From positions 1-41,238 of the forward strand of contig PMJR01000093.1 in NCBI GenBank assembly GCA_003158475.1: a stretch of DNA of 41,238 bases, given 5' to 3'. The stretch comes from Ignavibacteriota bacterium. GTDB taxonomy: Bacteria > Bacteroidota > Ignavibacteria > UBA10030 > UBA6906. Made by a program: the position numbers and the translations under genes. Every line of letters begins with the position of its first letter. Position 1 is the first letter of the stretch. Shown in pieces: positions 4,432 to 39,232 of the stretch. The notes under the pieces are model-generated. The model worked only from the letters and a program-made list of their open reading frames with translations. It did not search any database and had not been told where the DNA came from.

Positions 4432-4962
4432 TCAGTTGCCGGCCCGCTTCTTCATCAGTTCGTGGATAAGAACATCCTTGTTTGCCATCGAGATCTCCCG
4501 CCCCTGGATAGCGATGCCTTCGGTATTTCGTGCGAGAGTCCTGAGCTGGTGCACGGTCATCGCGTCGAGCTGGGCACCGTACTCCACATCATCGTCGCTT
4601 GCGACAAAATCAAATTCCTCTTCCTCTCCCTCCGGAGTGCCAGGCTGAGCCTCGGTCGGGAAAGACTCGGAGAGCGGAGGGGCCGGCGTGCGCTGCTTCA
4701 GTATACTTTCAATCTCATCTGAAGGGCGGGGGATGACATGCGTTGATACAAGCTGTCCGACACGCCGGGCGGCGGCCGCGCCGGCCTCCACCGCGGCGTT
4801 CACAGCCGCAACTTCACCGATAACCTCGACGGTAACGAGGCCGTTGCGGATGTATTCGGTCCCCAGGAGAGCCACATTCGCGGTCTTCACCATGACGTCA
4901 GCGGCCTCAATCGATCCGACGAGGCCGCGCGTTTCAACCATCCCCAGGGCGTAGTCCAGCAT
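4432..4962 (-). CDS. BMC-domain shell protein with C-terminal SAP/Rho-N-like extension
   Basis: The 176-residue product has one BMC domain (about residues 5-88; [20 protein letters not shown], then [21 protein letters not shown] and VSTHVIPRP), the fold of hexameric shell tiles of carboxysomes and metabolosomes. An acidic, disordered linker (about 90-130, with EGEEEEFDF) leads to a C-terminal unit (about 135-172: [11 protein letters not shown], then [16 protein letters not shown]) that resembles SAP or Rho N-terminal helix-extension-helix domains, often nucleic-acid or protein binding. Some known shell proteins (PduK, EutK) also carry extra C-terminal domains. Its ATG lies 3 bp after the stop of the preceding shell gene, so the two are co-translated. 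The BMC call is firm; the tail assignment is inference. Confidence 0.9.
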
Positions 4963-7662: not shown

Positions 7663-10194
7663 TCACCCTACCGGATTCCCCTTTGCCCCGGACGCGGTCA
7701 TTCGTCGTTTCACAAGCTGGACACGCCATAATCCGGCAGCGACACAGATCAGGACCAGACCCCAAGCGGCATTGGTCAGAACCCAGCCGGTACGGTAGAG
7801 CGGCGGGTCGAACGTGAAGACGACCTCATGTGTTCCCCCCGGAATAAGGACAGAGCGGAGGATATAGTCCGTCCGGTAAATTTCAGTCTCCGCACCGTCG
7901 ACGAACGCCTTCCATCCGGCAGGATAGTACACTTCACTCAGCACCAGGAGAGCCGGCGCGGGAGCATCGGTGGACACGCGAACCTCACGGGATTTGTACG
8001 AGGTGATGCGGGGCACGTGCGTACTGTCCACAGGGGATATCTGCTGCGGCAGTTGCTTGTACAGAACCGCCGTGCGGGCGGGATTAAACCCCCCTGAATT
8101 CAGCACGCGGAACACATCGCCGTCGTTTGCCGCCGTGAACGATTCCCCGGCGTAGAACGCCCGCGGCAGTGCGCCCGGATTCCTGTAGGTGAGCGTCCGC
8201 TGCGCCTGATCCGACTTGACAAGCTGAAACTGCGGCTCCGGCAGCCTCCCGTGGACGACCAGGAATTCCACGTTCAGCATGTTGAGGACATTCATGTTGA
8301 TGGGAAGCGAGGGATCGGTCCCCCTGTAGATGCAGGAGTCCAGGAGCGTCTGATAGATCTTCAGCTTCGCGGGGCTGTATCCCGTGATCGACTGGAGGCC
8401 GTGATAGGCAAACGAATTGTCCATGTAAAGCGGATCGCGCGGGTCGATTCCTGCGAAGAGTCGGAACAGGCCGGGCTGGCTCTTGAGAAACGTTATCGTG
8501 GCGTCAGGACGAAACGCCTGGGCCAGGTCCTGCGATGGTTTCGGATCGATGTACTTGGAGGCTACGAGCGACAGATCGATTGTCACAAGCACGATGATCG
8601 CAGCCGAAAAGGTCCATTCGCGGAGCGATCCCTTCACCCATGCGGCGCACAGCGCGCAAAGAGCGGCCGCGAGCAGCGAAAATTTCACGTAGTCCTTCCA
8701 GAAGATCTCAAACCGGGCCTGCCGGAGCTGTGCAACCATGCGCGGCGCCCGTGCGCCGTACTGCTGCTGAATCTGCTCTGCCTGTCCCTGCTTCAGGAAC
8801 ATCGAACCGGGAAGACTTTCGAGCAGACTGTTCTGTACCAGGAGTGCAAGTACGAGGAGCCCCGCGATGACACCCCCTGCGACGAGGAGCGCCCGGTAGA
8901 GTTTGTGCGTATCGATCCCCGAATCCCGCCCGCGCGCGCCCACGAGGGCTGAGAAACCGGCAGCGGCAAGTATGCCCGTGATAAACGGCAGCAGGTGCAG
9001 GATCTGCTCAGGAGCACGGAACTTGTTGAAGTAGGGGAGATAGGAGAAGAGCAGCTGATAGAGAAGCGAAAAATTGTTGCCGAAGGAGACCAGGACGATG
9101 ATGAGAGCCACAAGCCCGAAGAAGACCACGAACCGCGTCCGGCGATACACGAGGGCGAGTATGCTGAAAAGAATCGGCACAAGTCCCACATACACGCTGG
9201 AATTTGTCCAGGGAATCATCGGTCCCCAGTAATAGTCCGACTTCATTCCGTAAAAGCCCGGGATCAGCAGGGTGACAAGCTCCCCCGGATGCCATGACCA
9301 GTTAGTCGCATAGTCATACGCAAGGCCGCCGGGGGCTCCTGTGGTGCCGCCGCCGCGCATGGAGTACTGGGCATACTCAGAAACCGAGAGATAAATATAT
9401 GACGAGATGCAGAACCCGAGCAGCAGCGCACCGGCAAATAATGCGGCTTTTGCCGCTGCCCCCGGGAGCTTACCCCTGTAGTCCAGCGTGATATGATAGA
9501 TCAGGTACAACCCGAGGAACATGAAAACGTAGTACACGATCTGCATATGGTTTGTCAGCATCAGCGTCCCGATCGCGGCCGCCAGAAGTCCGACGCTGAG
9601 CACGTCGCGTCGCTCAAACAGAGAGTGCGAGAGAAGGACAACCAGGGGAAGGTAGCTGAGCGCCATGAGCTTCGAGCCGTGTCCCTCGCCGGCGAGGCCG
9701 ATCATATACGGACTGAGCATGAACGTCAGTGCAGCGATCAGCGCTGCGGGACGTGAGAAGCTCCACGCCCTCATCAGGAAAAACATGAAGAGTCCGCCGA
9801 GGAAGTAGTAGACCACAAGCCAAGTCCACGTACCGTTCAGATAGAGAAAATTGAGCACCCATTGTACAGCAGTCTGCGCATAGCTCACGTTATGCGGAAC
9901 AAAGGCGACATTCCCGAACGTCGGCATGCCGCTGAAGAAATACGGCATCCAGAGCGCATCCACCCCTTCCGTCCTTTCAATTTCCCCTCCGACATGGGTG
10001 TAGCTGAGCGCTGTGGCGGTGTCCCCCTCTGACGCAAAGGCCGCATTATCGAAAACGATCCCCCGGAAGACGATCAGCGTCACGGCGTACAACAGGACGA
10101 CGCAGAGTATATCCTGCACGAGCGGGGAAAGAGATGAAAACGGAGAAGCGGCATGGTCTGCGGCGGGACGGTGGTCCTTCTTTGCATGTGCCAT
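7663..10194 (-). CDS. YfhO-family polytopic membrane protein (GT-C type glycosyltransferase)
   Basis: The 843-residue product has a short cytoplasmic N-terminus, about twelve membrane helices up to residue 550, and a large C-terminal extracytoplasmic part with a closing helix near 815-832. The first outside loop has acidic residues (ASEGDTATALSYTHVGGE) followed by DALWMPYFFSGMPTFGN, as expected for the GT-C fold. The C-terminal block LVLSEVYYPAGWKAFVDG is a YfhO hallmark. YfhO in Bacillus and Listeria transfers sugar from a polyprenyl-phosphate donor onto lipoteichoic acid outside the membrane. Here it is the last gene of the polysaccharide locus, 3 bp after the GT4-like gene, and a paralogue is at 25128-27434. 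Acceptor unknown. Confidence 0.85.
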   Translation of the reverse strand: MAHAKKDHRPAADHAASPFSSLSPLVQDILCVVLLYAVTLIVFRGIVFDNAAFASEGDTATALSYTHVGGEIERTEGVDALWMPYFFSGMPTFGNVAFVPHNVSYAQTAVQWVLNFLYLNGTWTWLVVYYFLGGLFMFFLMRAWSFSRPAALIAALTFMLSPYMIGLAGEGHGSKLMALSYLPLVVLLSHSLFERRDVLSVGLLAAAIGTLMLTNHMQIVYYVFMFLGLYLIYHITLDYRGKLPGAAAKAALFAGALLLGFCISSYIYLSVSEYAQYSMRGGGTTGAPGGLAYDYATNWSWHPGELVTLLIPGFYGMKSDYYWGPMIPWTNSSVYVGLVPILFSILALVYRRTRFVVFFGLVALIIVLVSFGNNFSLLYQLLFSYLPYFNKFRAPEQILHLLPFITGILAAAGFSALVGARGRDSGIDTHKLYRALLVAGGVIAGLLVLALLVQNSLLESLPGSMFLKQGQAEQIQQQYGARAPRMVAQLRQARFEIFWKDYVKFSLLAAALCALCAAWVKGSLREWTFSAAIIVLVTIDLSLVASKYIDPKPSQDLAQAFRPDATITFLKSQPGLFRLFAGIDPRDPLYMDNSFAYHGLQSITGYSPAKLKIYQTLLDSCIYRGTDPSLPINMNVLNMLNVEFLVVHGRLPEPQFQLVKSDQAQRTLTYRNPGALPRAFYAGESFTAANDGDVFRVLNSGGFNPARTAVLYKQLPQQISPVDSTHVPRITSYKSREVRVSTDAPAPALLVLSEVYYPAGWKAFVDGAETEIYRTDYILRSVLIPGGTHEVVFTFDPPLYRTGWVLTNAAWGLVLICVAAGLWRVQLVKRRMTASGAKGNPVG

Positions 10195-16236: not shown

Positions 16237-17604
16237 TCACCGTGACCAGATCCCCGTCGCACGTCCTGAGAGTATTTTCCTCATCTGGATGGGCCACAGG
16301 ACACAACCGGGAGAGAGGGAGACGCAGATCGCGATCATCACTCCCGCAGGTCCCAGGTGCATGGACGTAGAAAACAGGATCCCGAGCGAAACAACCGCCA
16401 GTGCCGTCAATACGGCGACCCACAATTGCAGGCGGATCTTGCCTGTTCCGTTGATAAAGTACGCAAATATGCTGCTCCACGCAACGACCAACACGTATGC
16501 GGCCATCGACAGTGAAAGCAACGTCGGAATCCTGATATCCGGCCCCACCCAGAAAAGATACAGCCGGGGGGCTGCGAACGTCATAGCGATCAGCACACAG
16601 ACAAGCCCTCCGAATGAAACCATGAGTTTTCGGGTCGTCATAGTTATCCAGCGGAAGTCCGCCCGGGTGTATGCTTCCGTATAGGCAGACCAGAAAGGCG
16701 TGAGCAGAACCGTAAATCCCATCAGCGCGACGCCGTAATACTTGAATGCTATGTTGTACCGGGTCACTTCAGCGGAGCCGAAGAGCTGGATGATAATCAG
16801 GTTCGCACTCGTAAAGATCACAACCCCGGAAATCTGGAGGATGAAGAACTGTATCCCGAGGCTCACAAGCTTCCGGGCACGGTCCCGTCGCACAAAATGA
16901 ATCGATGGCGCCAGATCCCTGTACCGGGTGCGAAACAGGAAGAGATTTGCGGCGAGGGGGACGGCAGCCGCAATCATGCTCACGAGAAAACCGAGGAGAA
17001 AGAGGGATCCATGGGAGACGCGTGTCAGGACAAACACGACGCCAAGAGCTATGCCGCTGTTCAGGACCTCAAGAAGCGCGCTGAAGCCGGATTTCTGATC
17101 CGCCAGCAGGACCGTCCCGACCAGTCCAAAAAGGAGACGGAGGCAGAAAAACACAAACACCGACGCCGCAAGCCGCGTCAGCTCTCCCTCCATCTCGGGA
17201 GGAGCATTCAGAATCGATGTCCACGGCAAAAAGGGGTTTGCGACAAAGAACAGCACCAGGAGGGCCAGGACAATTCCTCCCACGCACGCATAGGTTGTGC
17301 TGATCGATATCCGGGCGGATTCCCTGTCTCCCAGTGCGAGTGCGCGGGCGAATTCATTCCGCAGTCCGTTCCCGAGACCGATGTCCATCATTCCCACCCA
17401 GCTGATTGTGGAACTCAGGGTAATCCAGATCCCGTACCCGGCCGGATTCAGGTAGCTGAGAGTCAGAGGGACCAGGAGAAGACTGATCAGGATGCTGGTG
17501 CCGCGGAGGAAGAACAGCGCAACGATATTCCGCTTCGTTCTCCTGCTCCGTTCACCTCCCGCAAACAATCGTTCCGCAATATATCGCGGGATATTGAGCG
17601 ACAT
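16237..17604 (-). CDS. Wzx-type oligosaccharide flippase (first of two)
   Basis: The 455-residue product is a 12-14 helix integral membrane protein of the MOP/PST superfamily. After a basic cytoplasmic N-terminus the first helix is in VALFFLRGTSILISLLLVPL (about residues 28-47), then the conserved YLNPAGYGIWITLSS and MDIGLGNGLRNEFARAL, typical of Wzx. Such proteins move undecaprenyl-diphosphate-linked repeat units from the cytoplasmic to the periplasmic leaflet. The ATG overlaps the stop of gmd. A second flippase gene lies at 18668-19984; the two sequences differ clearly in their N-terminal halves, so they are not a recent duplication. Confidence 0.85.
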   Translation of the reverse strand: MSLNIPRYIAERLFAGGERSRRTKRNIVALFFLRGTSILISLLLVPLTLSYLNPAGYGIWITLSSTISWVGMMDIGLGNGLRNEFARALALGDRESARISISTTYACVGGIVLALLVLFFVANPFLPWTSILNAPPEMEGELTRLAASVFVFFCLRLLFGLVGTVLLADQKSGFSALLEVLNSGIALGVVFVLTRVSHGSLFLLGFLVSMIAAAVPLAANLFLFRTRYRDLAPSIHFVRRDRARKLVSLGIQFFILQISGVVIFTSANLIIIQLFGSAEVTRYNIAFKYYGVALMGFTVLLTPFWSAYTEAYTRADFRWITMTTRKLMVSFGGLVCVLIAMTFAAPRLYLFWVGPDIRIPTLLSLSMAAYVLVVAWSSIFAYFINGTGKIRLQLWVAVLTALAVVSLGILFSTSMHLGPAGVMIAICVSLSPGCVLWPIQMRKILSGRATGIWSR

Positions 17605-18647
17605 CAGTATCCCCGTTTAGTCACTCGTTCGAAATCAGCCTTCACCATCATGGCGACGAGATCCTCAAACACCGTCGTGGGCGCCCACCCGAGCTTTTCC
17701 CTGGCCTTTGTGGCATCCCCCATGAGGACTTCCACCTCTGTCGGACGGTAGTAACGGGGATCTATCTCCACCAGGATATTGCCCGTCTTCCTGTCGATGC
17801 CCCGTTCGGCCGGACCCACCCCGCTCCACTCCAGCGGCATATCGAGGAGCTTGAACGTGAGGTCGGCGAACTCCCGCACCGTATGTGTCTTTCCCGTTGC
17901 GAGGACGAAATCCCCCGGCGTTTCCTGCTGGAGCATGCGCCACATACCTTCGCAGTACTCAGGCGCGTATCCCCAGTCCCGTTTCGCGTTGAGGTTTCCA
18001 AGCGCAACGGATTTCTGCAACCCGAGCTTGATACGCGCCGCGGCGAGCGTCATCTTCCGTGTCACGAATCCCTCGCCCCGTCGCGGCGATTCGTGGTTGA
18101 AAAGGATCCCGTTGCATGCATAGAGATTGTACGCTTCCCGGTAGTTGATCACGATCCAGTAGCCGTACAGCTTTGCAACGCCGTACGGACTTCGCGGGTA
18201 GAACGGTGTCACCTCGCTCTGCGGCACCTCCCTCGCCTTGCCGAACAGTTCGCTTGTCGAAGCCTGATAGAAGCGCGTCTTGACGCCCGTTTCGCGGATC
18301 GCATCCAGAAAACGAAGCGTCCCCACGGCATCAACCTGCGCCGTATACTCGGGGACATCGAATGACACCTTCACATGGCTCTGTGCCGCCAGGTTGTAGA
18401 TTTCATCGGGGGTGATCTTTTCGAGCAGGCGGTTGAGGTTGGACGTGTCGGTCACATCGCCATAGTGAAGGAACAGCCTCTTGTCCATCAGCTTCTCGTT
18501 CTGAATGTACAGGTGGTCGATCCTTCCACGGTTGAAGGAACTGCTCCGGCGGATTATGCCGTGCACTTCGTACCCCTTGTCCAGAAGGAGTTCCGCAAGG
18601 TATGAACCGTCCTGGCCCGTGATTCCCGAGAGCAGCGCTTTTTTCAT
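17604..18647 (-). CDS. gmd: GDP-mannose 4,6-dehydratase
   Basis: The 347-residue product starts [20 protein letters not shown]; a longer reading to 18848 would add 67 residues that run into the preceding gene. It is a short-chain dehydrogenase of the extended family: the G-x-x-G-x-x-G dinucleotide motif at residues 8-14, [27 protein letters not shown], the catalytic STSELFG and Y-x3-K ([10 protein letters not shown]), and [15 protein letters not shown] for GDP-sugar binding. It converts GDP-D-mannose to GDP-4-keto-6-deoxy-D-mannose in the cytoplasm, the precursor of GDP-fucose, GDP-rhamnose and GDP-perosamine. No fcl, rmd or per gene is in the window. Stop and next start overlap (TGATG). Confidence 0.96.
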
Positions 18648-18667
18648 CGTAGGTTCCCGGCCTCCCT

Positions 18668-19984
18668 TTAGTTGAAATCTCGAAGTCTGCTGCGGATAAA
18701 TGTACGAATGTCTTTCGTTCTGCTCACGACCGCTTGGGCCGTCAGGGGGACGTGGCGGACCAGGAAGCGGACCGTCAGGACCGAGGTGATGATACTTGCC
18801 ACAAGATAACCTGTCCCCGCTCCCACGGCTCCCCACGGGGGGATGCACACCAGAAAAGCAGCGAGGGAGGCAAGGAGAACCTGTATACCCAGAATAAACG
18901 AGAGCCGTGCCTCGCCGAGTCCCATCAGGACATTGGAGCCGATGGCGGCAAGGGGCACGACAAATGTAAGGAACGAAAAAATTCGCAGAATGGGTGCGGC
19001 CTCGGCATATTTTCCGGCATACAGGACGCGCACAAGAATCTCCGGAAATGCCAGGAACAACACCGTCACCGGAAGGAGCCCCAGCGTCAGGAAAAGAACG
19101 GACTTCTCCGTCATCGCCTTCAGCGAGGCGAAGCTTCCCTGGGACGAAAGCCTCGAAGCGGCGGGAAGGACGAACATCTGAACGACCTGCGCCGCCATCT
19201 CGTACACACGGACGAACACCTTGGCCGAGTTATACACTGCAACCTGAACCGGTCCGGTAAAGGCAGACAGGATGAACGAATCCGCCTTTGTCGAGAAGAG
19301 AGAGCTGACCACCCCGCCGAGAGAGTATTTGCCGTAGTCCCACACCTGTTGTACCGCGCTCATCGGGGGACGGACGCTGACGTGCAGAAGCTTTCTGGCA
19401 AACCAGAGGCCCGCCAGCGAAGAAGCAGACAGGGAAACCAGGTTGATCGTCACGAGGTCCAGTGCGGAATCGAACATGTGCAACCGGGACATCACCCAGA
19501 CAAGGAACGGCGCGCCGACAAAATGCACCGCGTCCATCCAGAACACCTCCTGAACCCTGAACTGGGCCTGCAGGAGGGTGAGCGTGAAGTTGCGGAAGAA
19601 CGATGCCGCCAGCATCGCAGGAACATACAGCATCAGCGGTGTCAGCGAGGGCGAATTGAGTATCCTCCCGGCCGGTATGCTGCATCCCAGGACCACGAGG
19701 GAAGCGACGGCGATAAAAAGCGCATTGAGAACCAGGGATGCCGACACGATCCCTTCGAGGCGTGCATTCTCCTCCGACGAAAACTTGAGCAACGGCTGGA
19801 GCGCGAACGCCGTCGCGAGGCCCGAGATGACGAGGAAGACTTCCTGCACGAGCACAAAGTTGCCGAACTCCTCTTCCGGAAGAACACGTATGACCAGCCA
19901 GACGTATCCAATGCCGTACACCACGGGGAGCGCCTTGTCGGCTAAGCCCCATATCCCTTTGGCCAGGTGTTTTCCGAACTCCAT
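18668..19984 (-). CDS. Wzx-type oligosaccharide flippase (second of two)
   Basis: The 438-residue product is a polytopic membrane protein of the PST/MOP class, with about 12-14 helices. The start [20 protein letters not shown] leads into the first helix, then [19 protein letters not shown], the F/Y-G-x-F/Y region of Wzx proteins; the conserved central YGKYSLGG and [20 protein letters not shown] are also present, and a basic C-terminal tail follows. It would flip a lipid-linked glycan across the inner membrane. It lies 20 bp before gmd and 6 bp after a GT2 gene. Two flippases in one locus suggest two glycans or two repeat units. Confidence 0.85.
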
Positions 19985-21591: not shown

Positions 21592-22376
21592 CGCTCCCCT
21601 CCCTTGCGGCAATGCAGGAGTATTGCTGTCGCCATCAATGGGCACTTTGTCGAATCCCGGGAGAAAGGTCCGGCGCGGAGAATATCACGCAGCCAGGATT
21701 TTCCGAGTACATCCATGGGTGCCGTCACGTACAGGACCGCATGTACCGAAAAGCCGTGACTCGTGACAAGACGCACGATATCCTCCTTTCGGTAAATGCG
21801 CGCATACGCGAAGCGGCGGTGAAGAGGGTCTGGAAGCCAGGAAAAGAAGGGGACGCGGTTCCAGGGGAGCAGCGGAAGCGCCGCGCCGTGCGTCTCGAAG
21901 ATCCACCATTTATTCGGGACAGTCAGAACAAAATCGCCCCCCGGCTTCAGCACGCGCCGGATTTCCGCTAGAGCGACCGCTTCGTCCGGAACATGTTCCA
22001 GCACCTCATAGCAGACCACGCCATCGACAGACCCGTCGGGAAGCGGCAGATCCGAGCCGTCGTACAGCACGGGGAATATCGCGTCCGCCGGTCCCGTCGC
22101 CGTCCGCAGGATTGTAAGATCCGTCAGATCGATATCCACCGCGATAAGCATGCGTTGCGCCCCGGCCAGTGCCACCGTCTGCGCTCCGTTGCCGCATCCG
22201 AAGTCGAGGAGAGTCCTTCCCTCAAACGGAATAAGCGAGGCGGTCAGCCGTCGCCTGCGCGCGAGAATTTCCTGACCGTAGCCGGCGGGTTTTCCCCGCG
22301 CCACCGCTTGTTCCTTCAAAGCCACCTCTGTCTGTTCCGGGCCGGGGTCATTGTGCGAGTCTCTCGATCGCGGCAA
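21588..22376 (-). CDS. Class I SAM-dependent methyltransferase (Methyltransf_11 type)
   Basis: The 262-residue product has TLLDFGCGNGAQTVAL (about residues 55-70) for SAM binding, LIAVDIDLTDL, VDGVVCYEVLEHVPDE (about 117-132) and RVLKPGGDFVLTVPNKWWIF. The start is uncertain: the longest reading begins with TTG at 22376 and overlaps the preceding gene by 29 bp; a GTG at 22325 would shorten it by 17 residues. The C-terminal half, with ARIYRKEDIVRLVTSHGF, is typical of polyprenol- or glycan-associated methyltransferases. Context suggests modification of a sugar in the polysaccharide. Confidence 0.8.
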   Translation of the reverse strand: MPRSRDSHNDPGPEQTEVALKEQAVARGKPAGYGQEILARRRRLTASLIPFEGRTLLDFGCGNGAQTVALAGAQRMLIAVDIDLTDLTILRTATGPADAIFPVLYDGSDLPLPDGSVDGVVCYEVLEHVPDEAVALAEIRRVLKPGGDFVLTVPNKWWIFETHGAALPLLPWNRVPFFSWLPDPLHRRFAYARIYRKEDIVRLVTSHGFSVHAVLYVTAPMDVLGKSWLRDILRAGPFSRDSTKCPLMATAILLHCRKGGER

Positions 22377-23469
22377 CCAGGTTCTCCCAGGAATACCGCT
22401 TCTTCTCTTCGCGAACCGTCAGGCGGAGCCGGGCCCGGTCCACCGACGTAAAGTACTCAAAAATCCTATCGGCGAGTGCCCGGGGATCATTCGGCGGGAC
22501 AAGCAGGCCGGTTTCTCCGTCGCGTACCACCTCTGCGAGGCCACCGACATTCGTCGCGATGACCGGCAAATCGAAGTTGTATGCGATCTGCGCTATCCCG
22601 CTCTGCGTGGCGGATGTGTATGGAAGAACCGCGGCATCCGCCGCCGAAAAGTAATATTTCACCTCTTCATTGGGGATGTAATCAGACCGTACCGTCACGA
22701 TGGTTTCCAGCTCCAGACGCCGGATCCGGTCCCGGTATGTTTGTTCATCGTCGTAGAACTCCCCCACCACCAGGAGCGCGAGATCAAGTCGTCCCCGGAG
22801 GAGCGCGAGAGCATCGAGAAGCACATCGAGCCCTTTGTATTTCCGAACATAGCCGAAAAACAGGAGCACGTGAGGCGCAGTGATCCCCAGCCGGAGCCGG
22901 GCTTCCCCGGGAGCAACGGGAGAACCGAAGCGGTTGTAGACCGGGTGGGGAACGTGTTCGTAACGGGCTCCCGGAAACAGCGCAAGCAGATCACGCTCCA
23001 CGGAACGTGACTGAACGACGAACCCGTCCGCTGCACGAAAAGCGTAACGGGTGAAGATGGTGTCGCCGGGACGCGCTTCATGCGGGATCACGTTGTGGCA
23101 GATATAGACGACCTTTGTCCCTCTCCCCTTCCGGACGATGCGTGCAATGGTTCCGAAGCAGGGGCCGAAGAACGGGAGCGAATATTGGAACAGCAGGAGA
23201 TCGGGCCGGCGGTTCCTGATGATGCGCCCCACTCGTCTCCAGTTGAGGGGGTTGATCGAATCGACGATGGCCGTGCTCGGCATCGTATACTCGTCGCCGG
23301 TCCCTTCCTCCACCTGCGTCTTTCCGGGAAAGAGAAACCGGGGATACTGTCGCGAGAATGTGACGATATCCACCGTATGGCGGGTGCTCAGCTCCCGGTA
23401 CAGCTGGCTATTGTGGTGCGCAATCCCCCCCCGGAAGGGATACGCCGGTCCCACGATCGTGATGTTCAC
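22348..23469 (-). CDS. GT4 family glycosyltransferase
   Basis: A GTG at 23469 overlapping the preceding stop (GTGA) gives a 373-residue product starting with VNITIVGPAYPFRGGIAHHN, a characteristic GT4 donor-domain beginning; upstream in-frame sequence is not conserved-looking. In the second half come GYVRKYKGLDVLLDAL (about residues 180-200 region), ADAAVLPYTSATQSGIAQIA, and VIATNVGGLAEVVRDGETGL, the retaining GT-B nucleotide-sugar site; here the usual E-x7-E has S-A-T-Q-S-G-I-A-Q, a variant seen in several GT4 clades. It acts in the cytoplasm on a lipid-linked acceptor. Confidence 0.9.
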   Translation of the reverse strand: MNITIVGPAYPFRGGIAHHNSQLYRELSTRHTVDIVTFSRQYPRFLFPGKTQVEEGTGDEYTMPSTAIVDSINPLNWRRVGRIIRNRRPDLLLFQYSLPFFGPCFGTIARIVRKGRGTKVVYICHNVIPHEARPGDTIFTRYAFRAADGFVVQSRSVERDLLALFPGARYEHVPHPVYNRFGSPVAPGEARLRLGITAPHVLLFFGYVRKYKGLDVLLDALALLRGRLDLALLVVGEFYDDEQTYRDRIRRLELETIVTVRSDYIPNEEVKYYFSAADAAVLPYTSATQSGIAQIAYNFDLPVIATNVGGLAEVVRDGETGLLVPPNDPRALADRIFEYFTSVDRARLRLTVREEKKRYSWENLVAAIERLAQ

Positions 23470-24200
23470 GCTCTTCCGCCTTTTCGCGCGAGGCACAGGA
23501 GCGAGAGCCCGATCGGCAGAGAGGCGTGCGGGAGGATTCGGCGCTCGATGCGGAAGACCTCGCGCAATGTCGTGTTGAGGGGGCGGGTAGGAATCTCGAG
23601 GTCGTTCGCTTCGCCCGTTCCCGTCGCTGAGGCGGCAACCCGTTTCATCCATGCGACCGGAAAGAGAAAGCAATTAAGAAACGTCAGATGTTCCACCGTG
23701 AACCCGGCATGTTCAACGAGACGGCGGAGACTGCGTCGTGTATATCTCCTTTTGTGGTGGAGGATTTCGTCATGTCTGCTCCAGAGCGAAGGGAATGCCG
23801 GGACCGCGATCAGGATATGCCCCCCTTCGCTGAGAAGCCGGCGTCCGGTACGGAGAAGTCCGTCGTCGTCCTCCACGTGCTCGAGCATATCGAGCATGGT
23901 GATGAGGTCGAAAGGCTCCGAAAGGGGATACGTATCAAGCGTCCCACAATGCAGTCTCCGCAGCCCCCGTTCCCTGCAAAAAGCGATCGCCTGCGGCGCC
24001 GTGTCGGTGCCGAATGCCTGATACCGGCGGGAGAATGACTCCAGGATCGCGCCCGTGCCGCATCCGACGTCAAGCAGCCGGGCCGTCGGGGGGAGGGGGA
24101 GCCGGGCATCGAGGTAGCGGAGGAGGATCTCCTTCCGGGCCGTAAACCACCAGTGCTCGTTCTCCACCTCGTACAACAGCCGGTAGACCTGGTCCTCCAT
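23466..24200 (-). CDS. Class I SAM-dependent methyltransferase
   Basis: The 244-residue product begins MEDQVYRLLYEVENEHWWFTARKE-like (Tyr/Trp-rich H-W-W-F/Y motif near residues 16-19), has LLDVGCGTGAILESF near 41-55, FDLITMLDMLEHVEDDDGLL and the diagnostic PAFPSLWSRHDEILHHKRRY near 144-163. This W-x-x-H-D-x3-H-H-x-R-R-Y pattern occurs in methyltransferases next to dolichyl-/undecaprenyl-phosphate glycosyltransferases. It follows the CsbB-like GT2 by 4 bp, which fits this association. Substrate unknown, probably a polyprenyl-linked sugar. Confidence 0.85.
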   Translation of the reverse strand: MEDQVYRLLYEVENEHWWFTARKEILLRYLDARLPLPPTARLLDVGCGTGAILESFSRRYQAFGTDTAPQAIAFCRERGLRRLHCGTLDTYPLSEPFDLITMLDMLEHVEDDDGLLRTGRRLLSEGGHILIAVPAFPSLWSRHDEILHHKRRYTRRSLRRLVEHAGFTVEHLTFLNCFLFPVAWMKRVAASATGTGEANDLEIPTRPLNTTLREVFRIERRILPHASLPIGLSLLCLARKGGRA

Positions 24201-24204
24201 CCCG

Positions 24205-25122
24205 TCAGAATCCTATTTTGTCCCGTATGACGTAGAGGGGACGCTTCTTCACTTCCTCATAAATCCTGCTGATGTACTCGCCGATCACGCCGAGTGTCAC
24301 CAGAATCATTCCGCCCACGAAAAGAATCGAGAGTATGGTGGAGGCCCAGCCGAGGATCGCCTGGTTCGTAAAGAGCTTTGCATAGATGACATAGAAGCCC
24401 CCGGCGAACGATGCGGCCGCAGCGATCAGACCGAAATACACGGCAAGGCGGAGAGGGACATTGGAGAATGAAAAAATCCCGTCGAGGGCAAGCTGGATCA
24501 GGCGCCGGAGGCTCATCTGCGGCTTCCCTGCGAACCGGGGATCACGGTCATAATGAATCGCAGTCTGCTGGAAACCGGCCCATGCCCGGAGGCCGCTGAT
24601 ATACCTGTTCCGTTCCGGCATGGCGCGGAGGACATCGACAACCCGCCTGTCCATCAGCGAAAAATTCCCGGCATCCATCGGGATCTGAATCGTCGAAAGC
24701 GCATGGAGAATCCGGTAAAACGACCTGAACGCAAGACGTTTCAGTGGATTTTCCCTGCGGCTCCTCTTCACCGTGTAGACCACATGGAAACCCTCTTTCC
24801 ACAACCTGATCATCTCCGGGAGGACCTCGGGAGGATCCTGGAGGTCTCCGTCCATCAGCACCACCGCGTCCCCCTTGGCTTCATCGAGTCCCGCGGAAAT
24901 TGCAATCTGATGGCCGAAGTTGCGGGAGAGCCGGATGATTTTGATCCTCGGATCCTCCATGTGCATGGCGGTCATGAGAGCGTACGAGGCGTCGCGGCTT
25001 CCGTCGTCGATCAGTATGATTTCAAAGGGCTCTTCCACCCCGGTTATCGCCGCCATCAGGCGCGTACGAAGCTCGGGAAGAATCTGTTCTTCGTTGTAGA
25101 TCGGGATAATGACCGTGTACAT
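24205..25122 (-). CDS. Polyprenyl-phosphate glycosyltransferase (GtrB/CsbB-like GT2)
   Basis: From ATG 25122 the 305-residue product has a DPM1-like catalytic domain: MYTVIIPIYNEEQILPEL, IILIDDGSRDASYALM near residues 35-50, SRNFGHQIAISAGLDEAKGD, VLMDGDLQDPPEVLPEMI (metal-binding D-x-D) and YTVKRSRRENPLKRLAFRSF. Two C-terminal membrane helices (about 225-250 and 260-283) match GtrB/CsbB/ArnC. Such enzymes make undecaprenyl-phosphate-sugar in the cytoplasmic leaflet, for later transfer outside. It lies 5 bp after a YfhO-family gene, the same partnership as CsbB-YfhO in Firmicutes. No small GtrA-type flippase is present, so flipping might be done by another protein. Confidence 0.9.
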   Translation of the reverse strand: MYTVIIPIYNEEQILPELRTRLMAAITGVEEPFEIILIDDGSRDASYALMTAMHMEDPRIKIIRLSRNFGHQIAISAGLDEAKGDAVVLMDGDLQDPPEVLPEMIRLWKEGFHVVYTVKRSRRENPLKRLAFRSFYRILHALSTIQIPMDAGNFSLMDRRVVDVLRAMPERNRYISGLRAWAGFQQTAIHYDRDPRFAGKPQMSLRRLIQLALDGIFSFSNVPLRLAVYFGLIAAAASFAGGFYVIYAKLFTNQAILGWASTILSILFVGGMILVTLGVIGEYISRIYEEVKKRPLYVIRDKIGF

Positions 25123-25127
25123 CAGCG

Positions 25128-27434
25128 TCAGTCCTCCTGTAGTCGTTTTCTCCGCAGGGAGGGCACTGCCAGCCCCGCAAGGCACACGACGAGGGCCGCC
25201 CCGGTGATCCACGCACCCCTGACAAAAGGCGGGGGAGTGAACCGGAACTCGACATGATGGCTTCCCCCGGGAAAGGCAATCCCCCGGAGATTATAGTCCG
25301 TCCGCAGGATCTCTGTTTCGGCACCGTCCACGTATGCCTTCCAGCCCGGGTAGAAAACCTCGCTGAGAACCAGGATCCCTTCCGTCGCGGAGGCGGCCTC
25401 GAGCTCAAGACGGTTGTCCTCGTAGGCCGTGACGCGCGCGCTCCCGTGGTTCCCGCCGGCCGGCGGGGGAGCGTGCAGCGGGGAATCCTGTTCCAGAATT
25501 GCCGTGGTGGCGTGGTTCCATGTCGGGTCCCTGAACGCTGCGGCCAGTTCCTCTTCCGTGCGCGCCACGCGGACATCAAAGAGGAAATACGCACGTCCCA
25601 TATACGTCGGGTTGTGTGCGAGTGAGAGGGATCCGGTCTGCCTGTCGAATGATGTCCTGTACTTGACGTTCAGGAGATCGAATTTCTGGGTGTCGTTATA
25701 TGGGGGAATCGCGCGTTGAAGCACGAGAGGAGTGTAGCCCTCCAGCGTAAAAATCCTGTTCACCATCCCCTGGTTCCGGTCCATGATCATGCCGTATTGG
25801 TTCCGCGTATTTACGCGGAAGAGGTCGTTCTTCATGTCGTTGCGGATAAATCGCACAAGCGGATCGGCCCGGCGGAAATACTCAGACGGGTTTGTCGAAG
25901 AGGTGTTTTGATCGGCCCCGAAAACAAACATATCCGTAAAGAACAAAACCGGGAGAACAAACGTCGCGCGGGCCAGCCAGTCTTTGTTTGCACGGAGCGC
26001 CAGGAGCGCGCCGGCGGAAAGGAGGACGAACAGGAGGGTCCAGTGAGCTTCCTTCCTCATTGCCTGCACCATCACGGGATTGTTCGGGACGCCCAGCACC
26101 GGGTCCAGCATTCCCGTTACCACCGCTCCCCAGAGGGCGATCCCGGCTCCTGCGACTGAAAGCAGAACAGTGCGGACGCGCCGGGATTCCGGCGAATTCT
26201 TCTCACCGTTCATCATTGCCTGCAGCGCAAAGGCGGACAGGAGAGACCCCGCAAAGGAAAAGAACACTCCCGCGCGCGCGGGGTTGCGGAATTTGGAGAA
26301 ACCGGGAACATACTCCAGGACCAGTTTATGAAGAAAGAAACTGTTCCCGAGAGCGAACAGGAGCGTCAACAACGCCACACCCCAGAAGAACGCGGCGTGG
26401 GGGTTTTTGCGGACACAGAGAGCGGAGATCACCATCAGCATCAACGGCAGGATCCCGGGATAGATGCAGGTCTCCCAGAAATACCAGTATGTCCCGGGCC
26501 CCCAGTAATTGCTCCCCGCAGCGCCGGCGGCCCCGAATAGTTTCGGGATGAACAGCGTCAGAAGCTGGGACCATGCAAGGGACCCTTCCGTCGACTTCTC
26601 GTACGTGATCTGGGCACGTTGCGAGAGCGCGGCGAGCTCCGCCGTAGGAAGAAGCTGGATTGCCGCCACGGCCAGGCCCAGGCCCACGATCATCCCGGCC
26701 TTTGCAGCAAAGATGAAAGCCGGCCGTGAAAGGAGAGCTCTTCCCCGGTGGGCGTCCAGGAGGAGAAACAGGAAATAGGCGAAGAGGAACGAGTGAAAAA
26801 AGAGTGACAGCTGCGGGTACCCCGCGAATGTCGAATGGCCGAGCAACAAAGCGCAGAGAAACGCCGGACGCCAGCCTGCCTGGGTGAGGGAGATTCGGAA
26901 AAGCATCGTGATAAGCGGAAACCAGGCCACCATGGTGATAATCTGCTGGTGGATTGCGTGCGTGATCATGAAACCGGAGAGCATGTATGCCGCGCCGGCG
27001 AAAAGGGCGGGGGCGCGTTTCAGATCCAGGGAGGACGCCAGCAGGTACATTGCCCATCCTGCAAGAACGTAGTGGGCGATGACCATGATCTCGAGCCAGT
27101 AGAAATTCAACCCTCCGTCTCTGACGAACAGGGCGAGAGCGACACACGGGAGATAGAGAACCGTCGTCTGAATATCGGCCAGGAACGGCATGCCCGAAAA
27201 TGTGTAGGGGTTCCACAACGGGAGGTGCCCCATGGCCATCGAGGTGGCTGCAAAAACCCGGACCGGGTAGCTGAAATACAGCATATCCTCCCACAGCCAG
27301 GCCTCTCCGAGGAGGATCCTGTGGAAGAACAGAACGGTCATCCCGGTAAACAGGGCGACCGCCCTCCAATCACGGAGAGCCGCGGCCACGCCGTCTCTCC
27401 GGGCGGTCTTCTCTATGGGGCGATGTCGTGCCAT
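25128..27434 (-). CDS. YfhO-family polytopic membrane protein (GT-C type glycosyltransferase)
   Basis: The 768-residue product has about twelve membrane helices. A first outside loop near residues 45-90 has EAWLWEDMLYFSYPVR and LPLWNPYTFSGMPFLAD, the acidic and Pro-rich GT-C-like loop. A C-terminal extracytoplasmic domain (about 520-730) ends with the YfhO block LVLSEVFYPGWKAYVDG and a last helix near 740-755. It resembles the product of 7663-10194 in the SGMP and C-terminal blocks, so the two are paralogues. The likely role is transfer of a polyprenyl-phosphate-bound sugar made by the neighbouring GtrB/CsbB-like enzyme to a surface glycan in the periplasm. Confidence 0.85.
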   Translation of the reverse strand: MARHRPIEKTARRDGVAAALRDWRAVALFTGMTVLFFHRILLGEAWLWEDMLYFSYPVRVFAATSMAMGHLPLWNPYTFSGMPFLADIQTTVLYLPCVALALFVRDGGLNFYWLEIMVIAHYVLAGWAMYLLASSLDLKRAPALFAGAAYMLSGFMITHAIHQQIITMVAWFPLITMLFRISLTQAGWRPAFLCALLLGHSTFAGYPQLSLFFHSFLFAYFLFLLLDAHRGRALLSRPAFIFAAKAGMIVGLGLAVAAIQLLPTAELAALSQRAQITYEKSTEGSLAWSQLLTLFIPKLFGAAGAAGSNYWGPGTYWYFWETCIYPGILPLMLMVISALCVRKNPHAAFFWGVALLTLLFALGNSFFLHKLVLEYVPGFSKFRNPARAGVFFSFAGSLLSAFALQAMMNGEKNSPESRRVRTVLLSVAGAGIALWGAVVTGMLDPVLGVPNNPVMVQAMRKEAHWTLLFVLLSAGALLALRANKDWLARATFVLPVLFFTDMFVFGADQNTSSTNPSEYFRRADPLVRFIRNDMKNDLFRVNTRNQYGMIMDRNQGMVNRIFTLEGYTPLVLQRAIPPYNDTQKFDLLNVKYRTSFDRQTGSLSLAHNPTYMGRAYFLFDVRVARTEEELAAAFRDPTWNHATTAILEQDSPLHAPPPAGGNHGSARVTAYEDNRLELEAASATEGILVLSEVFYPGWKAYVDGAETEILRTDYNLRGIAFPGGSHHVEFRFTPPPFVRGAWITGAALVVCLAGLAVPSLRRKRLQED

Positions 27435-27495
27435 GGTAGTGGAGTTACGACCGGAGGAGGCGGGTACAGGACTCGAAAACGCTCCCCATCACGTC

Positions 27496-28560
27496 CTACT
27501 TGATGAAATCGCGGATCTGGTATTCAGTTTCAGCGGCTCGCGTCTTGGTGATCATTTCCCCCAGCAGCCCGATGGAAATGAACTGGATCCCCACGATGAT
27601 ACAGAGAATACCCCCGAGAAAGAGAGGACGGTTGCCGAGGGACGTGCGTCCGAGGTACCATTCGATCGCAAGCCAGCCGTCGATCATCACGCCGGCACCC
27701 ACCGCGACCAGCCCCCAGAACCCGAACAGGTGGAGCGGGCTGCGGAGGTACCGGGTTGTGAACAATGCAGTCAGCAGATCGAGGAATCCCCGCCAGAATC
27801 TCCCCACGCCGAACTTGCTCTTGCCGAACTTCCGTGGCCGGTGCTGTACCACGACCTCTCCGACCTTGAACCCTTCCCAGTGAGCGAGGACCGGAACGTA
27901 CCGGTGAAGCTCGCCGTACACCTTCACCGTTTTGATGACCTCACGGCGGTACGCTTTCATGCCGCAGTTAAAATCATGGATCCGGATACCCGTCAAACGC
28001 GCCGTCACAAAATTGAAGAACCGGGAGGGAATCGTCTTTGAAATCGGGTCCTTTCGTTTCTTCTTCCAGCCCGAGACGAGATCGAGTCCGTCGTCGATCC
28101 TCTTCTTCAGTGAAGGTATTTCCGCCGGATCATCCTGGAGATCTGCATCGAGCGTCACGACGATATTTCCCTGCGCTTTCTCGAATCCAACGGAAAGGGC
28201 GGCGGACTTCCCGTAATTCCTGCGAAAACGGATGACCTTGATGTGTTTGTCGGTCCGTTTCAGGTCACGAAGGACCTGGAAGGACCGGTCCGTGCTCCCG
28301 TCGTCGATGAAAAGGATTTCGTACCGGAGGTTCATCCGGCTGAGAGTCGAGCGGAGCTGCTGATGGAGTTCCTTGAGCGACCCCTCCTCATTGTAGAGGG
28401 GGATGACGACGCTCAGGTCGGGCCACTGGGGCTGGATGTTCCGCGGCTGCGGGGGACGTTGCTGATGCGGGCGCGGTTGCTGGTTCTGTTGCTGCGCGGG
28501 TGCCGGGGGAACCTCGGGTCGTTGCTGGGGCTCCGGAGATTCGGGTGTCTGGTCGGTCAT
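27496..28560 (-). CDS. DPM1/GtrB-like GT2 with Pro/Gln-rich N-terminal tail
   Basis: From ATG 28560 the product is 354 residues. The first 45 residues are almost only Pro, Gln, Glu, Arg and Asn (for example QQQNQQPRPHQQRPPQP) and predicted disordered. The catalytic domain starts at LSVVIPLYNEEGSLKELHQQ, with ILFIDDGSTDRSFQVL, FRRNYGKSAALSVGFEKAQG, LDADLQDDPAEIPSL and DFNCGMKAYRREVIK. Two C-terminal helices (about 270-335) match polyprenyl-phosphate sugar synthases. It is the first gene of the large polysaccharide operon, 61 bp before the YfhO gene. The two helices imply inner-membrane location with a cytoplasmic catalytic domain. The tail may bind a partner protein. Confidence 0.9.
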   Translation of the reverse strand: MTDQTPESPEPQQRPEVPPAPAQQQNQQPRPHQQRPPQPRNIQPQWPDLSVVIPLYNEEGSLKELHQQLRSTLSRMNLRYEILFIDDGSTDRSFQVLRDLKRTDKHIKVIRFRRNYGKSAALSVGFEKAQGNIVVTLDADLQDDPAEIPSLKKRIDDGLDLVSGWKKKRKDPISKTIPSRFFNFVTARLTGIRIHDFNCGMKAYRREVIKTVKVYGELHRYVPVLAHWEGFKVGEVVVQHRPRKFGKSKFGVGRFWRGFLDLLTALFTTRYLRSPLHLFGFWGLVAVGAGVMIDGWLAIEWYLGRTSLGNRPLFLGGILCIIVGIQFISIGLLGEMITKTRAAETEYQIRDFIK

Positions 28561-28610
28561 CGGTGTGAGGTCCAGGTAGAACTGGCGTGTGGCTGAAACT
28601 CGATAATACA

Positions 28611-28641
28611 GAATACTAACCATTTCCGTATAGAAAATCAA
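28611..28641 (-). promoter_or_regulatory. Possible promoter of the polysaccharide operon (TTG-N20-TAGTATTC)
   Basis: On the minus strand TTG (28641-28639) and TAGTATTC (28618-28611) are separated by 20 bp. Spacing matches the other sites, but the -7 element has two mismatches to TAnnTTTG, so the site would be weak or need an activator. It lies 50 bp before the first gene of the 21 kb operon and 12 bp from the divergent rsmA promoter. Confidence 0.35.
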
Positions 28642-38434: not shown

Positions 38435-39232
38435 TCATTTGTTCGGTTTTCCCTCCTGCGCGCGCAGGACCTCTGCTGCGAAGGCGGCCCGGACCCTCTC
38501 GAGATCCCCGGGGGTGTCCACGGCAATGCTCACGTGCTCGGTGACGACAGCATGAAGAGCGTGGCCGTGTTCGAGGATCCTCAGTTGTTCCAGTTGTTCC
38601 GCCATCTCGAGAGGCGTCTGCGTCATTGCCGCAAAGGCCAGGAGAAACTCCCGCCGGAAAACGTACAGGCCGACATGCCCGTACACCGGGAACGTCGCGA
38701 TGAGCTCCTCCGGCGTCATCCCCCGGCCGAACGGGACCGCCGCACGCGAAAAATACAGGCATCTGCCCGACCGGTCGAGCAGAACCTTCGGAAGATTGGG
38801 ATTGCGCAGTTCCGCCGCAGAGCGGATCCGCCGGACGAGCGTTCCGGCTTCGATCGAGGGATCCTCGAGGAGAGGCCTGATCGCTTCGTCAATCATTGGC
38901 GGAGGGATCAGCGGTTCATCCCCCTGCACATTCACGATTATCTCCGTCCCGGCCAGCGGGCGTGCCGCCAGTGCGATCCTGTCCGACCCGCTCCTGACGT
39001 CCGTCGGGGTCATGACGGCTTCTCCGCCATGCGACCGCACTGCCTCAGCGATCCGCTCATCGTCGGTTGCCACGATCACTCTGTCGACGAGACGTGCCCC
39101 GGCGGCGCGTTCCATCACGTGCACGATCATCGGCTTCCCCGCGATAAGCGCAAGCGGCTTGCCGGGGAAGCGCTGCGAGCCGTACCGTGCGGGGATGATC
39201 GCAACAGTCCGTGTCCCGGCCGGGCGGCTCAT
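38435..39232 (-). CDS. kdsB: 3-deoxy-manno-octulosonate cytidylyltransferase
   Basis: The 265-residue product has VAIIPARYGSQRFPGKPLAL (residues 9-28), the CTP-binding start of KdsB, then VIVATDDERIAEAVRSHGGE, VMTPTDVRSGSDRIAL and IIVNVQGDEPLIPPPMIDEA (metal-binding D). It transfers CMP from CTP to Kdo, giving CMP-Kdo, the donor for inner-core LPS. This marks the host as an LPS-bearing Gram-negative. The ATG overlaps the gatC stop (ATGA). Length is slightly above the usual 245-250 residues, with extra residues at both ends. Confidence 0.96.
   Translation of the reverse strand: MSRPAGTRTVAIIPARYGSQRFPGKPLALIAGKPMIVHVMERAAGARLVDRVIVATDDERIAEAVRSHGGEAVMTPTDVRSGSDRIALAARPLAGTEIIVNVQGDEPLIPPPMIDEAIRPLLEDPSIEAGTLVRRIRSAAELRNPNLPKVLLDRSGRCLYFSRAAVPFGRGMTPEELIATFPVYGHVGLYVFRREFLLAFAAMTQTPLEMAEQLEQLRILEHGHALHAVVTEHVSIAVDTPGDLERVRAAFAAEVLRAQEGKPNK

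Follow-up and report, generated by a model that had tools for sequence, protein, structure and literature searches.

We analyzed a stretch of 41,238 nucleotides (hereafter, the window; contig PMJR01000093.1 of assembly GCA_003158475.1, completeness 97.85%) from an Ignavibacteriota bacterium. The host is a Gram-negative soil bacterium, and the closest named relatives of the window are metagenome-assembled genomes from fens titled 'Ignavibacteriae bacterium'. This analysis concerns two genes, here called YfhO1 and GT2down, in a locus of the lipopolysaccharide (LPS) type:

25128..27434, minus strand: YfhO1, a predicted YfhO-like GT-C membrane glycosyltransferase of 768 residues (PF09586, 46.9 bits against a cut-off of 28.5; GT-C model).
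24205..25122, minus strand: GT2down, a putative GtrB/CsbB-type GT2 enzyme of 305 residues with two C-terminal transmembrane (TM) helices (PF00535, 113 bits).

The original prediction, a GT2 with two C-terminal helices lying 5 bp from a YfhO-family gene, was confirmed by these coordinates, including the 5-bp gap, and by the matches to PF00535 and PF09586. GT2down starts at ATG 25122; the GTG at 25212 given in the list of open reading frames (ORFs) falls within the upstream gene. As described below, the pairing of a donor synthase gene with a GT-C gene is real in the order of the host, and from its sequence context the pair looks like an exchangeable decoration cassette.

Conservation of the pairing was analyzed in 60 relatives from the order. 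YfhO1, recognized by a best E-value of 1e-95 or better, was present in 32 of them; a protein of G046 with 30% identity was excluded. GT2down lay directly after YfhO1 in 20 of the 31 readable genomes (19 of 30 loci, plus G009 by coordinates), and G008 was unreadable because YfhO1 runs off the contig end. In 17 loci, the two genes were separated by −4 to +27 bp, the values of L018 (mis-called start) and L033 (frame split) being set aside. In L033, YfhO1 of G005 is split over two frames into pieces of 64% and 58% identity, either a pseudogene or an assembly error. The adjacency was kept across four families, over which YfhO1 diverged to ~37% identity. When a GT2down orthologue was defined by at least 60% identity or by adjacency to YfhO1, it was found in 24 of the 32 YfhO1 genomes compared to none of the 28 others. 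Apart from the G046 relative, families f5 and f6 have no YfhO1, so a fairer test is confined to families f1 to f4; there, the orthologue was present in 24 of 32 genomes with YfhO1 and in 0 of 7 without it (Fisher p = 4e-4, uncorrected for relatedness), two of these seven being incomplete assemblies (62% and 70%). Separately, G036 carries two GT2down copies within its locus (L116:12254-17009).

Next, the identity of GT2down was analyzed. Hydrophobic C-terminal segments were found at residues 222-240 and 263-281, and a D-x-D motif at residues 91-93. The solved GtrB of Synechocystis (sll0501) matched the protein over its full length (residues 3-304, E 9e-87), whereas ArnC was a weaker match (~1e-43). 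GT2down thus has all the features of the GtrB/CsbB group, namely a GT2 domain, the D-x-D motif, two TM helices, and full-length similarity, indicating that it is likely an undecaprenyl-phosphate-sugar synthase of this type.

YfhO1 has 13 hydrophobic segments and a C-terminal beta domain. PF09586 was its sole Pfam match, and the match was limited to profile positions 755-835 of 835 (81 positions), whereas a Listeria YfhO matched positions 2-833 with 403.5 bits. A sequence search for relatives in the PDB found none. We therefore turn to its AlphaFold model, which was built on 27 of the 30 YfhO1 loci (27 rows; L012, partial, L018, with its mis-called start, and the frame-split L033 were left out) and had a mean predicted local distance difference test score (pLDDT) of 84.9 and a predicted template modelling score (pTM) of 0.87. 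A Foldseek search with the model gave 12 matches at E <= 0.001, and all 12 were GT-C proteins. In VIA-align, the model was aligned with yeast STT3 (Z 16.8, root-mean-square deviation 5.0, 434 residues aligned), AftD (Z 15.7, root-mean-square deviation 5.3, 565 aligned, model residues 13-759), PglB (Z 15.5), and Pmt4 (Z 15.4); except for AftD, these comparisons covered little of YfhO1 past residue ~624. The modelled structure therefore points to a GT-C fold for YfhO1.

GT-C enzymes keep a catalytic acid at the helix following TM1. In the YfhO1 model, Asp50 opens the helix after TM1 and lies in the first outer loop. The corresponding column contained Asp in 93 of 97 YfhO-like rows, with three gaps and one Asn, in an alignment without two very distant L128 rows, rows longer than 980 or shorter than 600 residues, and rows with many X. 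As observed, Asp was also present there in a Listeria YfhO, a Bacteroides YfhO, and YfhO2, a second YfhO-like protein of the window. Since the two D-x-D motifs of Bacillus subtilis YfhO are not conserved, and its catalytic residues are hard to predict according to passages of PMC5836110, Asp50 is a concrete, predicted candidate for the catalytic residue of YfhO1. It would thus offer a testable residue for a family in which, by the same passages, such prediction was difficult.

The relationship of YfhO1 to other YfhO-like proteins was analyzed with a FastTree tree of 77 rows, the more distant of which were hand-picked. YfhO1 formed its own clade of 27 rows (SH support 99), whose nearest neighbors were the 30% relative from G046 and then Chloroflexota proteins. 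The Listeria YfhO, the sole Firmicutes row, fell outside this clade on a long branch that attaches to a second long branch; this protein came from a whole-record family search and may not be the characterized wall-teichoic-acid enzyme. By its model and profile match, YfhO1 looks like a YfhO-type GT-C protein, but it does not appear to be a close relative of the characterized Firmicutes YfhO. A plain Firmicutes-type CsbB-YfhO system was rejected on the PF09586 profile coverage and the tree, so the acceptor chemistry of Firmicutes serves as an analogy only. The label "CsbB/GtrB-YfhO" given originally to the pair accordingly suits its GT2 half, which is near GtrB/CsbB, and is not supported for YfhO1, which lacks a full-length PF09586 match and stands in a separate clade. 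A position of the YfhO-like protein outside the characterized clade had been named as grounds for giving up that label; the failed full-length match goes in this direction, while the tree bears on it through a single, long-branched Firmicutes row. Furthermore, to call the transfer by Firmicutes YfhO established was too strong, as passages of PMC5836110 describe biochemical evidence as lacking.

YfhO-family proteins in Gram-negative bacteria are not new; Bacteroides ihuae in our control set matches PF09586, and Bacteroidetes members of the family are mentioned in passages of PMC5836110. Beyond the clades above, a third YfhO-like clade of 727-765 residues was observed in some genomes of the order (L198-L201 and L203), the Gottesmanbacteria contig L136 encodes four YfhO-like proteins within ~13 kb, and a plasmid search gave eight distant relatives of YfhO1.

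The other features of the window used below are as follows.

23466..24200, minus strand: S-adenosylmethionine (SAM)-dependent methyltransferase (PF13489, 75 bits).
27496..28641, minus strand: GT2up, a second two-helix GT2 of the ArnC/GtrB superfamily (ArnC, E 1e-51).
7663..10194, minus strand: YfhO2, a second YfhO-like protein, of 843 residues, predicted to be GT-C (PF09586, 36.5 bits).
22348..23673, minus strand: GT4_223, a GT4 glycosyltransferase (PF13692, 92 bits; synteny).
18668..19984, minus strand: Wzx/MOP-type flippase candidate (PF01943, 41.9 bits).
16237..17604, minus strand: second MOP-type flippase candidate, a weak match (PF01943, 24.5 bits, under the cut-off of 28.2).
17604..18848, minus strand: Gmd, GDP-mannose 4,6-dehydratase (TIGR01472, 558 bits, cut-off 415).
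38435..39232, minus strand: kdsB, CMP-Kdo synthase (TIGR00466, 212 bits, cut-off 155).

GT2up adjoins YfhO1 directly on its upstream side, and methyltransferases, GT4 and GT2 enzymes, the two MOP-type proteins, and Gmd lie between YfhO2 and GT2up. The methyltransferase begins 4 bp downstream of GT2down; it followed GT2down in 8 of 30 loci within 1.5-kb flanks, so it sometimes travels with the cassette. The listed ORF of GT4_223 overlaps that of the methyltransferase, and its true start probably lies inside the listed ORF. Farther off, at 4432-4962, the window encodes a protein with a bacterial-microcompartment shell domain (PF00936, 92 bits).

We then analyzed the slot that the pair occupies. 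A gene of the GT4_223 type forms its conserved right border by synteny. On the other side, 24 of the 28 nearest named loci carried a heptosyltransferase-like GT9 gene upstream of YfhO1 (these loci, L098-L125, bear the titles Ignavibacteria(e), Bacteroidetes, or Chlorobi and were drawn from a scan of named-genome contigs in which the best 80 of 96 were taken); L103, one of the four loci without GT9, has less than 0.6 kb of upstream sequence. The GT9 protein matched PF01075 with 36 bits, under the NCBIfam heptosyltransferase cut-offs, and its gene sat between YfhO1 and GT2up where both were readable, in one case 2 kb away. Among genomes without YfhO1, the slot was examined in eight regions, of which G043 (2.9 kb) and G013 (contig end) were not readable. 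As observed in G021 and G031, which belong to one genus, and in G056, GT9 was directly joined to GT4, both YfhO1 and GT2down being absent, and no GT2down was found elsewhere in these three genomes. These results indicated that YfhO1 and GT2down are missing there as a block. In G027, the slot held a different multi-TM protein with C-terminal tetratricopeptide repeats and weak, below-cut-off matches to glycosyltransferase families (L207:7621-9681). G030 had a PMT_2-like protein (25.7 bits against a cut-off of 26.1) between GT2up and GT4 (L210:3831-5624), and in G024, GT2up joined GT4 with no GT9.

With moderate confidence, we propose that YfhO1 and GT2down form an exchangeable periplasmic cassette, in which GT2down would load undecaprenyl phosphate and YfhO1 would transfer the sugar to an LPS-type glycan. 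The pairing in the order and the joint absence from the slot are observed; the predicted GT-C fold of the model and the similarity of GT2down to a solved GtrB suggest the two activities, whereas the identities of sugar, flippase, and acceptor are inferred. At the inner face of the membrane, GT2down would move one sugar from a nucleotide sugar to undecaprenyl phosphate, and the adjacent methyltransferase may modify this sugar. The lipid-linked sugar would then be flipped, perhaps by a MOP/Wzx-type protein of the locus or by another route, and YfhO1, with Asp50 in its first periplasmic loop, would pass it to the glycan made by the locus, for which the LPS core or O-antigen is the likeliest candidate. 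Searches of the genome led us to reject a flippase of the GtrA or SMR type: neither a GtrA-family gene (PF04138; 7 of 14 control genomes positive) nor an SMR-family gene (PF00893; 8 of 14 positive) was found in the whole host assembly, which extends the remark that no small GtrA flippase is visible in the window. This is why we consider a MOP-type protein or another route for flipping, and the locus offers two MOP-type candidates, of which one exceeds the Pfam cut-off and the other falls short of it. A Gram-negative precedent in O-antigen synthesis, a MATE-type flippase together with a GT-C protein carrying a carbohydrate-binding domain, is described in passages of PMC11127046. The kdsB match at 38435-39232 bore out that the host makes LPS, as had been assumed. 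A lipoteichoic acid acceptor is therefore not expected, and the proposal of a different acceptor agrees with both kdsB and the LPS-type locus.

Several results weigh against this reading. First, 11 of the 31 readable genomes have YfhO1 without an adjacent GT2down, and by eye these fall in three clades of the tree. Three of them (G012, G017, and G019) have a GT2down copy of 68-70% identity elsewhere in the genome, G014, G020, G032, and G037 have only relatives of 48-50% elsewhere, and in G010, G016, G018, and G050 no GT2down relative was found at E 1e-60 or better; YfhO1 can thus probably act without GT2down. Second, G034 has a GT2down relative of 54% identity beside a PMT_2 enzyme and no YfhO1, and the GT2down next to YfhO1 in G009 likewise reaches just 54%, which makes the 60% threshold partly a matter of choice. 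Third, no case of the pairing was observed beyond the order. Proteins resembling YfhO1 (identity of 28-36% where regions were read) occurred in 25 further genomes of a 395-genome sample of the phylum, which we take to be Bacteroidota in the GTDB placement. GT2down was present in none of 20 such regions (~4 kb on each side), in which a methyltransferase lay beside the YfhO1 relative in seven and a weak GT2 match in two. It was also adjacent in none of 49 more distant named loci, whose flanks vary; in two of these, a GT2down match (43% and 24%) lay more than 8 kb away. The conserved pairing sought by the original prediction thus holds in 20 of the 31 readable genomes of the order, fails in the 20 regions beyond it, and is, as far as seen, an order-level feature. 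Fourth, GT9 is missing from the window itself (27435-27495), although it is present in most relatives, including the same genus, so that the LPS context is weaker here than in relatives; a move of GT9 to another place in the host genome was rejected, the best match there having only 32% identity. Finally, ArnT gave Z 11.2 with the YfhO1 model, which is under the safe level of VIA-align for helical proteins.

As a side observation, the GT2down relative of G034 (L059:69-3157) is located between the PMT_2 enzyme and a methyltransferase like that of the window, a possible recurring trio of GT-C, GT2, and methyltransferase genes.

The foremost alternative is that the donor of YfhO1 comes from GT2up or a different undecaprenyl-phosphate-sugar synthase, with GT2down as an optional partner by which the sugar is altered or boosted. 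GT2up was found in 57 of the 60 genomes of the order, including all 32 with YfhO1, and it lies upstream of YfhO1 with few exceptions where that side is readable; the 11 genomes lacking an adjacent GT2down fit this explanation as well. However, 25 of the 28 genomes that lack YfhO1 also have GT2up, which accompanies YfhO2 across the phylum, and the joint absence of YfhO1 and GT2down in three genomes speaks for a tie between these two. We therefore consider this explanation unlikely. GT2up as the sole real partner of YfhO1 was rejected, since it occurs just as often in genomes that lack YfhO1 and accompanies YfhO2.

Less likely still is that the chemistry is the same and the acceptor is a protein, in general O-glycosylation, and not LPS. 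The closest solved folds to YfhO1 include oligosaccharyltransferases and Pmt4, and among NCBIfam equivalogs PgfS, a streptococcal protein-glycosylation gene, comes nearest to GT2down (259 bits, under the cut-off of 500). In addition, passages of PMC12871550 describe O-glycosylation transferases of Bacteroidota as still to be found. However, the GT-C fold is common to enzymes with other acceptors, such as AftD and ArnT, and the cassette is patchy and has a heptosyltransferase-like gene next to it, a pattern that a variable decoration of LPS would be expected to show. The third explanation, that the adjacency reflects nothing more than co-regulation within a glycan locus, the two enzymes acting in different steps, agrees with the other genes of the locus being packed as tightly and with the lack of the pairing outside the order, but is the least probable, since the adjacency was held in four families despite the divergence of YfhO1, the two genes are jointly absent in three genomes, and other GT2down relatives adjoin a multi-TM protein in three of six loci (in one, a PMT_2 enzyme; the remaining three were unreadable).

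YfhO2 and GT2up, which had escaped remark in the original prediction, were analyzed over the same 395 genomes. The YfhO2 profile matched 384 of them at E 1e-60, or 364 of the 371 good genomes, with 10 of the 11 misses in one family, and the GT2up profile matched 393 at E 1e-80. Linkage was counted on 96 genomes among the matches listed for both: the two genes lay within 20 kb in 35, of which 25 are outside the order of the host, and apart or on different contigs in 61. They were on the same strand in 34 of the 35, with GT2up upstream in all 34; in family f9, none of 10 genomes was linked, and in f40, none of 9. In ten linked loci, a MOP-type or similar multi-TM protein followed YfhO2 in six (four confirmed by PF01943; L254 has two small ORFs in between), and several had GT4_223-type or GT9 genes beside GT2up. 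The YfhO2 model (pLDDT 80.6) was similar to STT3 (Z 18.4) and AftD (Z 18.1), suggesting that YfhO2 is also a GT-C protein. In the tree, it grouped with Bacteroides YfhO, Bernardetia YfhO, and two Eisenbacteria proteins (SH support 99). GT2up is likely the donor synthase for YfhO2. In the plasmid-collection records of Bacteroides finegoldii and Bernardetia, YfhO2 lies among non-glycan genes, which weakens any guess on YfhO2 that is based on its locus.

The literature searches found no functional study of the YfhO2-GT2up pair. A near-universal pair of this kind matters in a phylum whose O-glycan transferases are missing; passages of PMC12871550 describe the core flippase, oligosaccharyltransferase, and ligase of Bacteroidota O-glycosylation as undiscovered. 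A bolder proposal, which we rate as rather improbable, is that GT2up and YfhO2 with the recurring GT4, GT9, and Wzx-type genes form a near-phylum-universal, unrecognized glycan-transfer machine of Bacteroidota. It would perhaps supply the donor synthase, flippase, and transferase of the general O-glycosylation core, or serve another envelope glycan, and YfhO1-GT2down would be its exchangeable accessory. As O-glycosylation candidates, GT2up and YfhO2 have a low probability, and this analysis gave no tie to protein glycosylation. Nevertheless, the near-universal second pair is the strongest lead and merits more attention than YfhO1-GT2down.

Finally, YfhO1-GT2down was compared with known systems. 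In the ArnC-ArnT modification of lipid A, a two-helix GT2 and a GT-C enzyme likewise act on LPS, and ArnE/F belong to the SMR family. YfhO1 is larger than ArnT, has a C-terminal beta domain, and matches only PF09586 in Pfam; the likeness to the ArnT fold is limited to Z 11.2, and the SMR family was not found in the host genome. The CsbB-YfhO(-GtcA) systems of Bacillus subtilis, Staphylococcus aureus, and Listeria likewise combine a membrane GT2 with a large GT-C partner from the PF09586 superfamily, according to passages of PMC5836110 and PMC8035078. The Asp in the first outer loop is common to YfhO1 and a Listeria YfhO. However, YfhO1 covers 81 of 835 profile positions and forms a separate clade, no GtrA was found, and the host has kdsB. 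Many gtr clusters are of phage origin. The GtrA-GtrB-Gtr* systems of Shigella and Salmonella, as described in passages of PMC11127046, likewise join an undecaprenyl-phosphate-sugar synthase to a variable GT-C enzyme that acts on O-antigen in the periplasm; here, the GT-C half is YfhO-like, no GtrA was found, and the glycan locus is of a chromosomal type. The three-component pentofuranose O-antigen system with GT136 is also Gram-negative, with a GT-C protein carrying a beta domain and a MATE-type flippase in place of GtrA, but its donor comes from a polyprenyl phosphoribose synthase and not from a GT2 (passages of PMC11127046). Furthermore, passages of PMC10584680 describe 'component 27', a bacterial YfhO-like GT-C family distinct from reference YfhO and linked to STT3/PglB, to which YfhO1 is likened by description only. 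A search of openly licensed literature gave no study on the function of YfhO in Bacteroides, in Ignavibacteria, or in the context of LPS, and in the literature found the YfhO1 GT-C clade is not tied to a function. YfhO1-GT2down thus appears to follow a known design with a distinct YfhO-like clade in an LPS-type locus, and would extend extracytoplasmic glycosylation of the GT2/YfhO type from teichoic-acid bacteria to such a locus.

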